From: a virus
DNA: 22,569 nt
Direction: 5' to 3' (one strand)
IMG/VR virus record: IMGVR_UViG_3300014962_000461
Location: 1-22,569 of that record
The number at the start of each line of letters is the position of its first letter. Positions within the stretch are counted from its first letter, which is position 1. The notes under the pieces are model-generated. The model was given only the letters and a program-made list of their open reading frames with translations. It was not told the origin of the DNA and made no database searches. Below, in pieces: positions 4,374 through 21,020 of this stretch. Position numbers and translations under genes: made by a program.

Positions 4374-5240
4374 ATGGGCATCATCGGGCAAAACGACCTG
4401 TTCAAAGAGGAGATGGCCAAGCGCCTTGCCGATGCTATGCCCAACATCGAGCAGAGGGTGTTGGATGAGATATTCCGCATCATTGACAAGATGGACAGCG
4501 CAGGCGGCAACTTCACCACAGGCGTACTGACAGCGGATAAGATGATGGAACTCACGCAGGTGATTAACCAAGCCCTGACAGGCGCAGGCTATCCGCAGCA
4601 GGTGCAGCTATTCATGTCCGACTTCGGTAAGGTGACTATCAATACAGCGGAAATCATGCAGCAGGTTGGCGGCGTGGCTGTTCGGCGTGTGGCACTCAGC
4701 GAGATAGAGAACAAGTGGAAGATGAACACGGTGGAAAGCCTGCTCGGTAGCGGTATCAATGAGAACTTCAAGCGCCCAATCCTGCGCATCCTTGACGATA
4801 CCATCAGCACGGGCGGCAGCATTGACGCAGCGAAGAAGACCCTGACTGAGTTCGTTAAGGGCGGTAATGACAAATCTGGTAAGCTGCAAAGCTACCTCAC
4901 ACAGACCGCCCGTGACAGCGTGGGGCAGCTACAAGGGCAGCAGTTTCAGTCCATTGCCGATGCGGTGGAAACAACAGGCGTGCGATACGTTGGCGGTCTG
5001 CTCAATGACAGCCGTGGGCAGTGTTATCGGTGGGTGCGGGAATTGAAAGGGTACATCCCGTGGGAAGACCTTGAGGATGAAATCAAATTGGCATACAAGA
5101 ATCAGACGGCCAAATTAGAGAAACCCCAAGGCCACAAGTGGAGCGGGCTGATGCCGAACACCAACCGAAAGAACTTCCTCACTCAGCGGGGGGGATATAA
5201 TTGCACCCACACCGCTGTACCTGTCAGACGGAAGCCTTAG
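4374..5240 (+). CDS. Phage head morphogenesis protein, MuF/SPP1 gp7-like
   Basis: A 288-residue minor head protein. The first ~180 residues are mostly helical. The C-terminal domain has the hallmark residues of the family: a DSRGQC segment at 212-217 and a terminal GGYNCTHTAVP segment with Cys277 and His279. MuF-type proteins bind the portal and help procapsid assembly or DNA ejection. The gene follows the portal gene by three bases, the standard pairing. The 3' end overlaps the convergent small gene on the other strand by 17 bases. A GGGGGGA run at 5189-5195 lies inside the final conserved motif without disturbing the frame. Confidence 0.85.
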   Translation: MGIIGQNDLFKEEMAKRLADAMPNIEQRVLDEIFRIIDKMDSAGGNFTTGVLTADKMMELTQVINQALTGAGYPQQVQLFMSDFGKVTINTAEIMQQVGGVAVRRVALSEIENKWKMNTVESLLGSGINENFKRPILRILDDTISTGGSIDAAKKTLTEFVKGGNDKSGKLQSYLTQTARDSVGQLQGQQFQSIADAVETTGVRYVGGLLNDSRGQCYRWVRELKGYIPWEDLEDEIKLAYKNQTAKLEKPQGHKWSGLMPNTNRKNFLTQRGGYNCTHTAVPVRRKP

Positions 5241-11417: not shown

Positions 11418-11695
11418 TGTTCATACGCATAGCAACCGCAGGAGTGACCAATACCGTGGTCGAATGGTCAGGTCAAGATTGGATTAACTTCACATCTACC
11501 TCAGGAGGCGCTACCTATACCCGCTTCGGTGTGGATATATCAGGCGGAATCAGTAACATCAGTAGGGGGTTCTTCGACTACACTCAATCGGTGCAGTGCG
11601 ATGATAGCGACTACATCACCGATGAACTCGGCAACGTCTACTACCGTGTGATGCAATACACAACAATCTCCACAGCACGACCTTCACGCACATGA
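11417..11695 (+). CDS. Small hypothetical fibre-associated protein
   Basis: A 92-residue soluble protein, beta-rich with aromatic and Gly/Ser/Thr residues, and no recognised family. Its start overlaps the previous stop (TAATG) and its stop overlaps the fibre gene start (ATGA), so expression is coupled to the fibre. It could be a fibre chaperone or attachment protein. It reads cleanly in frame with codon use like its neighbours. Confidence 0.6.
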   Translation: MFIRIATAGVTNTVVEWSGQDWINFTSTSGGATYTRFGVDISGGISNISRGFFDYTQSVQCDDSDYITDELGNVYYRVMQYTTISTARPSRT

Positions 11696-13674
11696 CATTC
11701 TACAACATAGCTACCGGACAATACCTCAGCGAGTGCGACTTCTATGCGCTTGTAAAGGATACAAACTATACCTGCTGTTCGCAGTCTGAGAATGTATGGA
11801 TCGCACATCCGAACAATCTTGCATTCAACGAGTACCAATGGCAACAGTACTTTCTCAGCCATGTGCCGTCATGCGGTTCGCCGTACACCCTCACACTTCG
11901 ATATTCAGCAGGAAATGCGCCGGTGCAGTCGCTCAATGATTGGAATACACAACTTGCGGGTAATTATACCGCAGTTTCCGTCATTGGCAATGATGTGATA
12001 TTGACAGGCGGAAGCGGTGTAGACATTCCCGCATCTGCGCTTATTGATTCTAACCTCGTGCAAGTGACAGATGACGGAAGCGTAAACAGCATGGGTGATA
12101 ACTGCCTTGCAGGCGGTTCTATTGCAAACCTTGTTCTGTCCGCTGCGGTTTCAGTAGGTAATGGACTGCTCGGTAACTGCCCGCTGTCGAACATTGAACT
12201 GCCGGCCTGCACTGCTCTTGGCTCAACGTCAGGCAATGACGGCATATTCACGGGCATTAGCGGTCAGTCGATTAGTGCGATATTCAACATAGCACTTGCA
12301 ACGAATAACGCAGGACAGCCTGACGGCGATATTCTCGACCTGTACGCCAACAACGATGTAACAACGCAATGGGACACAGCACCTGTGAATACGGTGGCTC
12401 CGGTTTTGACAGGTAACGGAACGATAGGCAGCACGGTATCATGCAGCACAGGAACATGGACATACCTTGGAGATATAACATATAGCTACCAATGGAAACG
12501 TGGTGTTTCTAATATTGGCACGAACTCGCCAAATTATACACTTGTCAGCGGTGATGCGGGGGCTGTTATTACTTGTGTTGTAACTGCTACAACCTCAGCA
12601 GGTTCTACTCCTGCTACGTCATCGAATAGCATTCAAGCCGATTCGGTTCCCGTTAATACAGTAGCACCTGCAATAACAGGCACTAATTCAGTAGGCTCTA
12701 CATTAACGGTGTCAAATGGTACATGGACGGCTAATGGAACAATAACCTACGCCTACCAATGGCGCAGGGGCGGTTCACCGATTGGAGGAGCTACTGCTTC
12801 GACTTATACACTTGTTCAGGCGGATGCTGCTGCTACTATTGACTGCGTTGTAACGGCAACCACTTCGGCAGGTTCTACTCCTGCTACCTCTTCCAATAGC
12901 TTGTATATTTATGACACAGATGCAAATGCGTTTATATCAGCAGCAAGTATTACGGATAATACGCAGAAAACTGCTGTAAATAAACTTGTTGCAGACCTTA
13001 AAGGCTATTCAATATGGACGAAAATGAAAGCCATCTATCCTATTGTTGGAGGTACGGCAGCTTCTCACAAATGGAATCTTAAAGACCCACAAGATACTAA
13101 TGCTGCATTTAGGCTTGTTTTTACTACTGGATGGACGCATTCAGCTAATGGCATGACACCTAATGGAACAAGTGCGTATGCAGATACATTTTTAAATGCA
13201 GCAACAGTAATATCTAATATCAATGATGGACATTTAAGTTATTATTCAAGAACTAATAATTCTGGAATTAATCAAGTTGAAATAGGTAATAGAAGCATTA
13301 CTTCTTCATTTGATTTGTTTATAAAATTCGGTTCAAGTAATTTAGCTGGTGCTTGTATTAATATGTCAGATACAAATACATTTATTAACACAAACAATTC
13401 AATTGGTTTATATCACGCTAATCAAAATAATACTCCAAATGTTCGTAAAATGTTCTGGAACGGCTCTGTTTTAGCTACTCAAACAGTTTCACAAAATGAA
13501 CAACCAAATTTAAAAATATTTATTGGTGCGCGAAATTTTAATAATGCAGTTGATCATTATTCAAACAGACAATGTGCTTTTGCATCAATAGGAAATGGAT
13601 TAACAGACACCGAAGCAGCTAACTTTTATACAGCGGTTCAAGCATTTCAAACAACATTAAACAGACAAGTATAA
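11692..13674 (+). CDS. Tail fibre / receptor-binding protein with two Ig-like repeats
   Basis: A 660-residue modular adhesin. Residues 1-230 are a virion-anchoring or assembly-type region, Cys-containing near the start (YTCCSQ) and Gly/Ser/Asn-rich later. Residues 231-313 and 320-403 are two tandem Ig-like domains repeating with an 89-residue period; both begin PVNTVAP, share YQW, and end TTSAGSTPATSSNS. Residues ~404-660 form a distinct C-terminal module beginning near DANAFISAASITD and containing KMKAIYPIVGG and HKWNLKDPQD, features I recall from C-terminal parts of Bacteroidota phage fibres with a lectin-like beta-sandwich. The DNA for this module is much richer in A+T than the rest, suggesting exchange. 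Expected role: host recognition. Confidence 0.8.
   Translation: MTFYNIATGQYLSECDFYALVKDTNYTCCSQSENVWIAHPNNLAFNEYQWQQYFLSHVPSCGSPYTLTLRYSAGNAPVQSLNDWNTQLAGNYTAVSVIGNDVILTGGSGVDIPASALIDSNLVQVTDDGSVNSMGDNCLAGGSIANLVLSAAVSVGNGLLGNCPLSNIELPACTALGSTSGNDGIFTGISGQSISAIFNIALATNNAGQPDGDILDLYANNDVTTQWDTAPVNTVAPVLTGNGTIGSTVSCSTGTWTYLGDITYSYQWKRGVSNIGTNSPNYTLVSGDAGAVITCVVTATTSAGSTPATSSNSIQADSVPVNTVAPAITGTNSVGSTLTVSNGTWTANGTITYAYQWRRGGSPIGGATASTYTLVQADAAATIDCVVTATTSAGSTPATSSNSLYIYDTDANAFISAASITDNTQKTAVNKLVADLKGYSIWTKMKAIYPIVGGTAASHKWNLKDPQDTNAAFRLVFTTGWTHSANGMTPNGTSAYADTFLNAATVISNINDGHLSYYSRTNNSGINQVEIGNRSITSSFDLFIKFGSSNLAGACINMSDTNTFINTNNSIGLYHANQNNTPNVRKMFWNGSVLATQTVSQNEQPNLKIFIGARNFNNAVDHYSNRQCAFASIGNGLTDTEAANFYTAVQAFQTTLNRQV
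12382..12900 (+). repeat. Tandem Ig-like domain repeat within the fibre gene
   Basis: Two direct copies, 12382-12630 and 12649-12900, with a 267-base period. The DNA is most alike at the 3' ends, where GCAGGTTCTACTCCTGCTAC is shared exactly. The proteins share the whole Ig-like layout. This indicates a domain duplication. Confidence 0.8.
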
Positions 13675-18888: not shown

Positions 18889-19167
18889 ATGCAAGTAATA
18901 ATCAAAAAAGCCATAGCGGTCGAGGTTGAATTCCCGCTATACTTCCGTGAAGGCGCATCAGCCTATGCCGTATTCAGTGAACAACAAGCCGTAGTAGCCC
19001 ATTGGTGGGAGCGGCTGAACCGTGGGTTCATTAATTCCCTGACAGCCGAAGAAGCCCTGCGGGAATATCAGCCGGGAGCCGAAATAACCGCTGATGAGTA
19101 CCGTGCAGCCGCTAAGCACACATTCAATCACATCGAATCTATGTACCAACAATCCATTCAGCCATGA
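18889..19167 (+). CDS. Hypothetical protein upstream of RecT
   Basis: A 92-residue protein. An N-terminal beta unit (VIIKKAIAVEVEFPLYFR) leads to a helical region with a paired Trp (AHWWERLNRGF) and an acidic C-terminal half. The start follows an A/C-rich leader (acaacaacacc). The stop overlaps the RecT start in ATGA, so it is co-expressed with the recombinase and may be an accessory protein. No family recognised. Confidence 0.65.
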   Translation: MQVIIKKAIAVEVEFPLYFREGASAYAVFSEQQAVVAHWWERLNRGFINSLTAEEALREYQPGAEITADEYRAAAKHTFNHIESMYQQSIQP

Positions 19168-20072
19168 GTACGGCAGTAATCACACAGCAAGAGATGGAGC
19201 CGGTAAAGGCCCGCATGAGCAGCCTGCTCGATGCTGAGACCGTACAGCGGGAGGTTAGTTTTGCCATGCAAGCCATTAACGGCAGCGCAGGGCTGCAAAA
19301 GTGCAGCAAGGAATCCCTTCAAAAGGCCGTGTTCAACATCGCCCTCACCGGCCTGAGCCTTAACCCTGTAACGAAACTGGCTTACCTTATCCCTCGTTGG
19401 TCCGCTGGTGGAATGCAGGCGGTGTTGGAACCATCTTATCAGGGCCTTATCAGGCTGCTGACCGATACCGGAAGTCTGCGCAGCATCTACGCCCATCCAG
19501 TGTACGATGGCGATGAGTTCGAGGTGCAATACGGAACTACCGCCGAACTAATCCACCGCCCGAAGTTCTCGTCCAAGGTTATGACGCACGTCTATGCGGT
19601 GGCTACCCTGTCCGATGGGTCTAAGCAATTCGAGGTCATGACGGCCGAAGAAGTTAACAGCATCCGTGAGCGGTCCGAATCCTACAAGGCATTCCAAGCC
19701 GGTAAGGTCAAGTCATGCACATGGGAGAGCGATTACGGCGAGATGGCCCGCAAGACTGTCATCAAACGCATATTCAAGTACCTGCCGAAGTCCGACCAGT
19801 TCAACCGTGCCGCTGAAGCCATCGCCATCGCAGACAGCGACTACACCATCAGCGACCAACAGGCTGACTACCTTGTACAACTGATCGAGCAGGCGGGGTA
19901 CGACCCGAATGCACAGCGGCACCTTGTCGCACGGGTGTACGAAGGCATCACGAAGACAGAATACGAGCGCATGGTTTCAGAAGCGAAGGCCAACACAATG
20001 GACCCGATACTGGCAGGTCGGAACTACTCACAGACGGATATTAAGAACCACCTGAAGAATATGCCTGAGTAA
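19164..20072 (+). CDS. recT: RecT-family single-strand annealing protein
   Basis: A 302-residue recombinase. The body at ~30-220 matches RecT layout: SLQKAVFNIALTGLSLNPV near 50-70, then LAYLIPRW, then LEPSYQGLIRLL, then a beta core with AVATLSDGSK and the helix EMARKTVIKRIFKYLPKS. RecT binds single-stranded DNA and anneals complementary strands during phage recombination or replication. A DUF3127 OB-fold protein with an SSB-like tail lies downstream in the same block. No RecE-like exonuclease is visible in the window. The start overlaps the upstream gene. Confidence 0.9.
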   Translation: MSTAVITQQEMEPVKARMSSLLDAETVQREVSFAMQAINGSAGLQKCSKESLQKAVFNIALTGLSLNPVTKLAYLIPRWSAGGMQAVLEPSYQGLIRLLTDTGSLRSIYAHPVYDGDEFEVQYGTTAELIHRPKFSSKVMTHVYAVATLSDGSKQFEVMTAEEVNSIRERSESYKAFQAGKVKSCTWESDYGEMARKTVIKRIFKYLPKSDQFNRAAEAIAIADSDYTISDQQADYLVQLIEQAGYDPNAQRHLVARVYEGITKTEYERMVSEAKANTMDPILAGRNYSQTDIKNHLKNMPE

Positions 20073-20078
20073 GGCACA

Positions 20079-20168
20079 CCCATGTTAGTTCGGAGGGCTA
20101 AGTAGCCCCACATGGTAGAATCGCAGCGGAAGGGCTGCGGGACACGGGTTCGATTCCCGTACATGGGG
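20079..20168 (+). ncRNA. tRNA-like RNA with D-loop hairpin and abnormal anticodon loop
   Basis: A cloverleaf can be drawn. Acceptor CCCATGT (20079-20085) pairs 7/7 with ACATGGG (20161-20167). Next come TA, D-stem GTTC/GAAT (20088-20091, 20118-20121), anticodon stem GCAGC/GCTGC (20123-20127, 20134-20138), a five-base variable loop GGGAC, and T-arm ACGGG-TTCGATT-CCCGT (20144-20160). G20168 would be the discriminator; CCA is not encoded. Two things are abnormal. The D-loop carries an 18-base insert (20094-20111) forming hairpin GGGCT-AAGT-AGCCC; without it the loop is a normal GGATGGTA. The anticodon loop is GGAAGG, six bases with no U33. It may be a decoy or mimic tRNA, a degenerate tRNA, or a leader element for the gene at 20185. 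Confidence 0.6.
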
Positions 20169-20184
20169 CAACATAAACAATAAT

Positions 20185-20619
20185 ATGCCAAAAACAGTCA
20201 ACATCGCAGAACTGCGCAAGCGATACGCAGCCGTCACATCAGACCACTACAACACCCTGCCGCCTATCGTGCAGCAGCTTGCGGAATCTATCGCACCATT
20301 CTTCCGGCTCAACGCAGCGGACATCTTCATACCTCGCAGGGTGCGCAAAATTGTCGATGCACGGCAGGTTCTTCAGTTCGCACTTGTCCGGGGCTGCGGT
20401 ATGCAGCTAACGGAAACCGGAAGGCTTACCGTAGTCGGAGGCGCAGATCATACCACCGTACTGCACGCCTGCAATGTAATCGGCCATGTTGGTCGCAGCG
20501 TTGACCATGTAGCCGCAGCACTGAACCACGCTATAGGCATCGCAAGGCAGCACTACTCAGCGCAGCGCTACCCATGCCCGGCCATTACAGGGATGCATCT
20601 AAAAAAATATGCCGCATGA
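20185..20619 (+). CDS. Stand-alone DnaA domain IV-like DNA-binding protein
   Basis: A 144-residue protein matching the C-terminal DNA-binding domain of the replication initiator DnaA. Residues ~30-110 align in order: AESIAPFFRLNAADIF (start of domain), RRVRKIVDARQVLQFALV (basic loop and helix), and GGADHTTVLHACNVI at 85-99, the DnaA signature in which Asp, His and Thr contact DnaA-box DNA. The AAA+ ATPase domain is absent. Possible roles: phage origin binding, or interference with host initiation. The start follows an A-rich leader after the tRNA-like RNA. The 3' end has A AAA AAA in frame, which could shift ribosomes into the next gene. Confidence 0.85.
   Translation: MPKTVNIAELRKRYAAVTSDHYNTLPPIVQQLAESIAPFFRLNAADIFIPRRVRKIVDARQVLQFALVRGCGMQLTETGRLTVVGGADHTTVLHACNVIGHVGRSVDHVAAALNHAIGIARQHYSAQRYPCPAITGMHLKKYAA
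20601..20607 (+). other. Possible -1 frameshift heptamer A AAA AAA
   Basis: Codons CTA AAA AAA of the DnaA-like gene contain A AAA AAA in the correct frame for -1 slippage. After the slip, ribosomes read ATA TGC CGC and run into the ATG of the next gene in its own frame, with no stop between. This would fuse the DnaA-like domain to the downstream 134-residue protein. No downstream stem was identified. Confidence 0.4.
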
Positions 20620-21020
20620 ATAACTCAGCAACATTCTACATCAAGGCAGTACTTGTTGCCGCTGCCAATATGAAGCGGTATATCGACCAGATCATCATCG
20701 AAGAAAAAATCAGCAGGACGGCAAAGAAGTTCCTAACGGATACACGAAAAAAAGCCGAAAGCATCGAGCGGGATATTTGCCTCCGAACAACGCCTGAACT
20801 CGCAGCGGTAATACGAAAAGAAATAGCCGATAACTGGGAAACCATCGCATTCGATAACATCTTATTCATGGCCCTCACGCTTGACGATGAAAGGCTTGGA
20901 CGGCTTGAACAGACAGCGGAAGACCTGATGAATGAACAGAATGGATGCAAGTGTTTAAGGTTTACCGGTGGTGATAAATGGTACCCGAATGGCTGTACAA
21001 TTCATCCTAATGGACAATGA
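20616..21020 (+). CDS. Hypothetical protein coupled to the DnaA-like gene
   Basis: A 134-residue protein starting at the ATG overlapping the upstream stop (ATGA). The first ~105 residues are helical, basic at the start (IEEKISRTAKKFLTDTRKK) and acidic later. The C-terminal 30 residues hold a CKC pair near residue 110, then GGDKWYPNG and a third Cys, which may be a small metal-binding unit. No family recognised. It may be made both alone and as a frameshift fusion with the DnaA-like domain. Confidence 0.6.
   Translation: MNNSATFYIKAVLVAAANMKRYIDQIIIEEKISRTAKKFLTDTRKKAESIERDICLRTTPELAAVIRKEIADNWETIAFDNILFMALTLDDERLGRLEQTAEDLMNEQNGCKCLRFTGGDKWYPNGCTIHPNGQ

Follow-up and report, generated by a model that had tools for sequence, protein, structure and literature searches.

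Introduction

The bacterial Y RNA YrlA is a tRNA-mimicking small RNA that does not decode. tRNAs encoded by phages are under active study as counter-defense tools, and surveys of these molecules rely on tRNA finders. Phage tRNAs are reported to counter anticodon nucleases by means of changes in their anticodon loops (PMC10264068), and also to rescue phages from the tRNA-cleaving retron and PrrC systems (PMC11555353). Among cultured phages, phiEcoM-GJ1 carries an RNA annotated as tRNA-Arg, 'codon recognized: CGA; may contain an intron' (EF460875, 14456–14550). The words hairpin, insertion and D-stem are absent from the accessible text of PMC10264068, a review on non-canonical tRNAs (PMC7609411) never mentions phage, and an open-access text search for long D-loops in phage tRNAs returned nothing; an earlier description elsewhere is possible.

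Here we analyze a 22,569-nt stretch of viral DNA (the window; IMG/VR record IMGVR_UViG_3300014962_000461), in which a sequence-only reading had pointed to a tRNA-like RNA with a hairpin in its D-loop. In our interpretation, this RNA does not decode and belongs to a little-noticed form of phage tRNAs, for which we use the label D-hairpin variant, coined in this analysis and not the name of an established family.

Results

A tRNA-family RNA between recT and a dnaA-like gene

The window encodes a phage RNA of the tRNA family whose D-loop contains an extra hairpin (Table 1). The coordinates and anatomy given in the sequence-only reading, that is, complete acceptor, T- and anticodon stems, the canonical T-loop and the variable loop (GGGAC), all stood, as did the hairpin insert in the D-arm, which spans 22 nt (20092–20113), includes a 5-bp hairpin and is followed by GGTA. 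The D-stem (GTTC at 20088–20091, GAAT at 20118–20121) forms four of four pairs, one of them G-U, and altogether 26 of the 26 designed pairs are formed. G20168 is the discriminator; CCA is not encoded, and CAACA comes next. With hairpin placed between the 5' D-stem strand and GGTA, and acceptor and T-arm paired, the RNA has the arrangement that marks the D-hairpin variant, and its 26-nt D-loop is well outside the ordinary size of ~7–12 nt.

Table 1. Position of the tRNA-like RNA, its structural parts and its flanking genes in the window.
Feature	Position	Strand	Support
tRNA-like RNA with D-loop hairpin	20079..20168	+	RF00005 30.8 bits, E 1.6e-6; ARAGORN
Acceptor 5' strand, CCCATGT	20079..20085	+	7/7 pairs with 20161–20167 ACATGGG
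Acceptor 3' strand, ACATGGG	20161..20167	+	pair probabilities
D-arm, stem GTTC/GAAT, 26-nt loop (22-nt insert, then GGTA)	20088..20121	+	
Inserted D-loop hairpin, GGGCT-AAGT-AGCCC, 5/5 pairs	20095..20108	+	pair probabilities 0.87–1.00
Anticodon arm, GCAGC-GGAAGG-GCTGC, 6-nt loop 20128–20133 without U	20123..20138	+	
T-arm, ACGGG-TTCGATT-CCCGT, canonical, 5/5 pairs	20144..20160	+	
RecT single-strand annealing protein gene	19164..20072	+	PF03837 E 3.4e-35; phrog_148
DnaA C-terminal-domain protein gene (helix-turn-helix)	20185..20619	+	PF08299 E 8.7e-11

Infernal bore out the proposed family membership: the RF00005 score came from a cmscan of the local stretch and exceeds the gathering score of 29, and the E-value from a search across the record, while a fast scan of the whole window with Rfam models did not pick up the RNA. 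ARAGORN calls a tRNA at the site but with a meaningless anticodon, set beside the inserted hairpin, which suggests that tRNA finders are misled by the extra D-loop sequence. A tmRNA identity was rejected (16.5 bits in a truncated match, versus a gathering score of 47 bits). The whole RNA folds at −38.3 kcal/mol (z = −3.28), a stability that none of 200 shuffles equals, with pair probabilities of 0.84–1.00 in the acceptor, T-arm, anticodon arm and inserted hairpin. The D-stem reaches only 0.03 in this thermodynamic prediction, as expected of a stem that closes a 26-nt loop; the D-loop insert, taken separately, folds better than 99% of its own shuffles (p = 0.006).

To decode, a tRNA needs an anticodon loop of 7 nt in which U33 is present together with a triplet that can be read. 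The loop GGAAGG, 6 nt long and without U33, would be unable to present an anticodon normally, as judged from its sequence and in agreement with the earlier view that normal decoding was unlikely. The loop of the ortholog in contig L002 (AGAAGG) is likewise U-less and 6 nt long, so this form of the loop predates the split of the two copies. Decoding by way of the short anticodon arm is improbable, since neither a 6-nt nor an 8-nt reading gives a triplet after U33 in either copy, although many D-insert viral tRNAs with 15–16-nt anticodon arms do keep U33 and a triplet, such as those with an invariant UGAA in the GGTTG family (see below) and the tRNA-Arg of phiEcoM-GJ1, with U33-UCG.

Two further accounts of the locus fared worse still. 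Pairing of CCATGT with ACATGG had been put forward as an alternative fold and a leader switch for the dnaA-like gene. The six-base inverted repeat does exist, and the RNA ends shortly before the start codon, but the alternative fold has a pair probability of 0.00, the best structure that includes it reaches −32.1 versus −38.3 kcal/mol (a penalty of 6 kcal/mol), and in L002 CCATGT has become CCCTGT with ACATGG unchanged, which breaks the alternative stem; we regard such a switch as very improbable. Phages can carry 3' fragments of tRNAs at att sites, and the element might be an attachment-site duplicate of the 3' end of a host tRNA, or else a chance cluster of inverted repeats. Both halves are tRNA-like, however, with a complete acceptor and the E-value of Table 1, and no integrase occurs among the proteins searched near the RNA, which makes either origin hardly credible.

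The recT stop codon ends 6 nt upstream of the RNA and the dnaA-like gene starts 16 nt downstream, all on the plus strand, so that the three form a tight co-oriented string. No sigma-70-like promoter was found in 19700–20700, and no intrinsic-terminator-like site at the RNA. Purely from this arrangement of genes, we infer that the element may punctuate the transcript. Its outer half, i.e., the 12-bp acceptor/T minihelix with the T-loop, would be recognized by host RNase P and RNase Z, which would cut the RNA out of the recT–dnaA-like transcript. Excision would separate both messages and leave a short leader (CAACATAAACAATAAT) before the dnaA-like ATG, while the D-hairpin and the closed anticodon loop would keep the excised RNA out of translation; the excised RNA could act as a decoy in addition. 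Retention of the RNA for its tRNA-like outer half, through such excision, is the explanation that we tentatively favor.

Other protein families in the window are portal-like, endolysin, metallophosphoesterase and single-strand-binding, and 11692–13674 encodes a protein with near-identical tandem repeats (PVNTVAPxITGTxxVGSTLTxSxGTW...), possibly an adhesin or tail-tip protein. The replication region is mosaic: the primase-helicase genes at L013:4562-6829 and L015:6984-9281 are only 27% identical, and the genes flanking them are ~90% identical to those of the window. Relatives of the major capsid protein (61–65% identity), in possibly incomplete contigs, came with no RecT, DnaA-like or tRNA match, and a RecT search of cellular genome contigs yielded one distant match and no pointer to the host.

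Orthologs and other occupants of the same slot

The dnaA-like gene is common to three viral contigs, and recT to two of those. L002 (recT 97% identical) is the only ortholog that covers the whole RNA, with four substitutions (A20082C, C20108A, G20128A and G20147T) and no indel. Three of them break pairs without compensation: A20082C in the acceptor, C20108A at the outer end of the inserted hairpin and G20147T in the T-stem. Re-registering around a one-base bulged U can accommodate the acceptor change, whereas the T-stem change cannot be absorbed. The L002 copy scores 15.9 bits against RF00005. If paired states are taken as ancestral, three of the four substitutions arose in the lineage of L002, and every pair of the window copy is intact. 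A sequencing error in L002 is unlikely, as most of its differences in recT and the dnaA-like gene lie at third positions, and L014 (98.7% identical), a contig that starts inside the T-arm and may come from the same site as L002, has the T-stem change too.

How strong a conservation of the RNA can be claimed depends on the yardstick. The 4 changes in 90 positions compare with 9 of the 90 nearest third positions (Fisher p 0.12), with 35 of 182 within ~270 nt (p 0.00046) and with 31% of the synonymous sites of both flanking genes (p 1.3e-8), and local divergence varies along the stretch. A lack of covariation in the stems, which the sequence-only reading had named as refuting its proposal, was half borne out: this sole orthologous pair has none, with three of four changes breaking pairs, but the D-hairpins of other viral tRNAs do covary.

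Because of L002, decay is a serious rival and the main one: a D-hairpin tRNA whose anticodon loop had shrunk by one base would now be drifting, with L002 further along and the slot in L003 refilled by another tRNA. The non-decoding loop, the low score of L002, a share of changes at paired bases (3/4) close to the 58% expected without constraint, and the different tRNA of L003, in keeping with the ordinary turnover of tRNAs in phages, all fit this account. Yet the loss in the loop predates the split from L002, and the window copy still has 26/26 pairs, with 4/90 differences and no indel between both; we consider decay doubtful, if quite conceivable.

In L003 (recT 94% identical), the slot (4846–4985) is occupied by a different tRNA (47 bits; Ala-cgc in ARAGORN), whose anticodon arm is closed (TTAGGAG-TCGCT-CTCCTAA); just upstream stands a separate hairpin of 7 bp (GGCAGAC-GGGGTAAA-GTCTGCC). 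The acceptor, anticodon-arm and D-arm sequences of this tRNA are unrelated to those of the window RNA, and what the two lineages share is confined to location, orientation and the acceptor/T minihelix. Since the site retains a tRNA fold despite unrelated sequence, position and minihelix, and not the anticodon, are singled out as what both have in common.

No tRNA lies downstream of recT in the distant recT relatives L004–L009. The contig of L005 has a tRNA ~14 kb from recT (L044:1501-1604, minus strand; 47.5 bits) with a 43-nt insert in the anticodon arm; a NUMOD4/HNH endonuclease gene directly precedes this tRNA and extends into its 5' end. The exact 3'-end pattern GGTTCGATTCCCGTACATGGG had no match in viral contigs, and BLASTN of the RNA, with and without the insert, against named phages gave mostly T-arm matches.

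D-loop hairpins in other viral tRNAs

The D-loop hairpin, at first seen as a one-off, proved to be a recurrent variant of tRNAs from unrelated viruses. IMG/VR was scanned with patterns that allow 10–40 nt from the 5' strand of the D-stem to the conserved GGTAGA, set no structure requirement on the insert and yield counts that are lower bounds; candidates were then parsed for acceptor and T-arm pairing. Genuine D-loop-insert tRNAs occur in at least dozens of viral contigs from unrelated families, and most of the inserts are hairpins. A strict fixed-register filter was passed by 27 of 151 among the matches listed, and by more with a one-base shift. Many other matches were discarded as ordinary tRNAs with a chance TAGCTC or TAGTTC upstream. 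Inserts folded better than 95% of their shuffles in 15 of 26 cases tested, that of the window RNA included. As a cellular baseline, 297 genomes of one phylum gave a single pattern match, a false one; these contain too few tRNAs to support a claim that the variant is virus-specific.

Comparison of related copies revealed covariation. In L105, L133 and L153, the hairpin shows three two-sided changes with every pair intact, a signal that disappears when the partners are slid. Similarly, 9 of 88 positions differ between the RNAs of L189 and L192, whose contigs are 89% identical. Six of these changes combine into three pairs that preserve pairing, of which two lie in the inserted hairpin and one lies in the acceptor; the other three create a pair or fall in loops, and no pair is broken.

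The GGTTG family (L105, L106, L119, L133, L153 and ~20 further viral contigs) has a bulged acceptor; its U33-GAA is invariant, for which reason its members are probably tRNA-Phe. Anticodon arms in the variant are often 14–16 nt long instead of 17, and several members keep U33 and a triplet. This does not hold for the window RNA (GGAAGG), L150 (CCAACA) and L165 (AAGA), and the arm of L207 is closed by extra pairs. ARAGORN finds nothing in most GGTTG-family contigs and assigns arbitrary anticodons to other members of the variant. Within L158:2625-5197, a D-hairpin tRNA-Phe adjoins a weak YrlA-like match (40.1 bits, below the cut-off), a GOLLD RNA (320 bits) and a tmRNA (73.7 bits), all on the same viral contig.

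L207 has a solitary D-hairpin tRNA-like RNA (11461–11555) with a long closed anticodon arm (CCTCCGGG-TAGCC-CCCGGAGG), flanked on one side by an Enc34-type ssDNA-binding/annealing gene and on the other by a DNA polymerase gene. This location may parallel that of the window RNA and, as one case, is suggestive.

In cultured phages, the RNA of L145 was found in 36 named records, 35 of them from Escherichia phages; those read belong to Chaseviridae (Carltongylesvirus and relatives; L211–L219). The Carltongylesvirus 'tRNA-Arg, may contain an intron' is this RNA and belongs with the D-hairpin variant; most named records leave it without annotation. In the copies read, the body is nearly constant and the loop within the stem ATCTG/CAGAT is TTCGA, TCGAA or TAAGA, which would be three different anticodons if read as U33-NNN-A37.

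A constant body with a swapped loop would also suit a mimic or decoy, i.e., an RNA that occupies or misleads a tRNA-cleaving defense nuclease or a host tRNA-modifying or charging enzyme. Such a role for the window RNA would agree with its non-decoding loop on a good tRNA body and with the counter-nuclease phage tRNAs reported in PMC11555353 and PMC10264068. The published cases, however, act by supplying a functional tRNA, and the stems are broken in L002; as the main function we deem it rather unlikely.

Discussion

Our preferred, still tentative reading, i.e., excision of the RNA from the recT–dnaA-like transcript, draws on membership in the tRNA family, the 6-nt and 16-nt spacing without a promoter or terminator-like site, the tRNA fold at the same site in L003, the parallel location in L207, the few changes with respect to L002 together with the intact pairs of the window copy, and the covariation of the D-loop hairpin in L105/L133/L153 and L189/L192. 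Against it count the L002 changes that break three cloverleaf pairs and lower the RF00005 score, and the weak conservation with respect to the nearest silent sites. More broadly, it is conceivable, though less likely than not, that phages hold a class of RNAs derived from tRNAs, as yet without a name, in which the D-loop hairpin covaries and the anticodon arm is shortened or closed. Some of these RNAs would be non-decoding tRNA mimics or tRNA-type processing signals in replication operons, such as recT–dnaA-like in the window and ssDNA-annealing protein–DNA polymerase in L207.

tRNA finders can miss or misread the variant, as seen with ARAGORN on the GGTTG family and with the 'intron' label in an E. 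coli phage. A covarying hairpin where the D-loop meets the T-loop should change how tRNA-recognizing enzymes and nucleases see the molecule. Carltongylesvirus phages grow easily on E. coli and offer natural anticodon-loop swaps, which renders function directly testable.

With phage tRNAs of RF00005, the window RNA shares the acceptor, the T-arm, the T-loop TTCGATT, UA at 8–9, the D-stem and the GG of the D-loop; it differs in the 22-nt D-loop insert with its hairpin, the 6-nt loop devoid of U33 and the lack of an anticodon. The tRNA-Arg of phiEcoM-GJ1 resembles it in the tRNA body, the long and partly paired D-loop insert, the short anticodon arm and its solitary occurrence, but is unrelated in sequence beyond what makes a tRNA and keeps U33-UCG-A37, so it may decode. 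The GGTTG family likewise places a hairpin between AG(T) and GGTA and has anticodon arms of 15–17 nt (16 nt in L106, equal to the window), whereas its U33-GAA is invariant, its acceptor bulged and its phages unrelated. L077 and L078 come closest in D-arm wording (TAGTTCGGA-hairpin-CATTGGTAGAA versus TAGTTCGGA-hairpin-CACATGGTAGAA in the window), and differ in a 7-nt loop with U33 (ATTAATA) and in gene neighborhood. YrlA is also a non-decoding tRNA mimic; with its model, a search of this region of the window at E-values of up to 10 gave no match. The nuclease-evading phage tRNAs, as described in the accessible text of PMC10264068, equally have altered anticodon loops but remain functional tRNAs.
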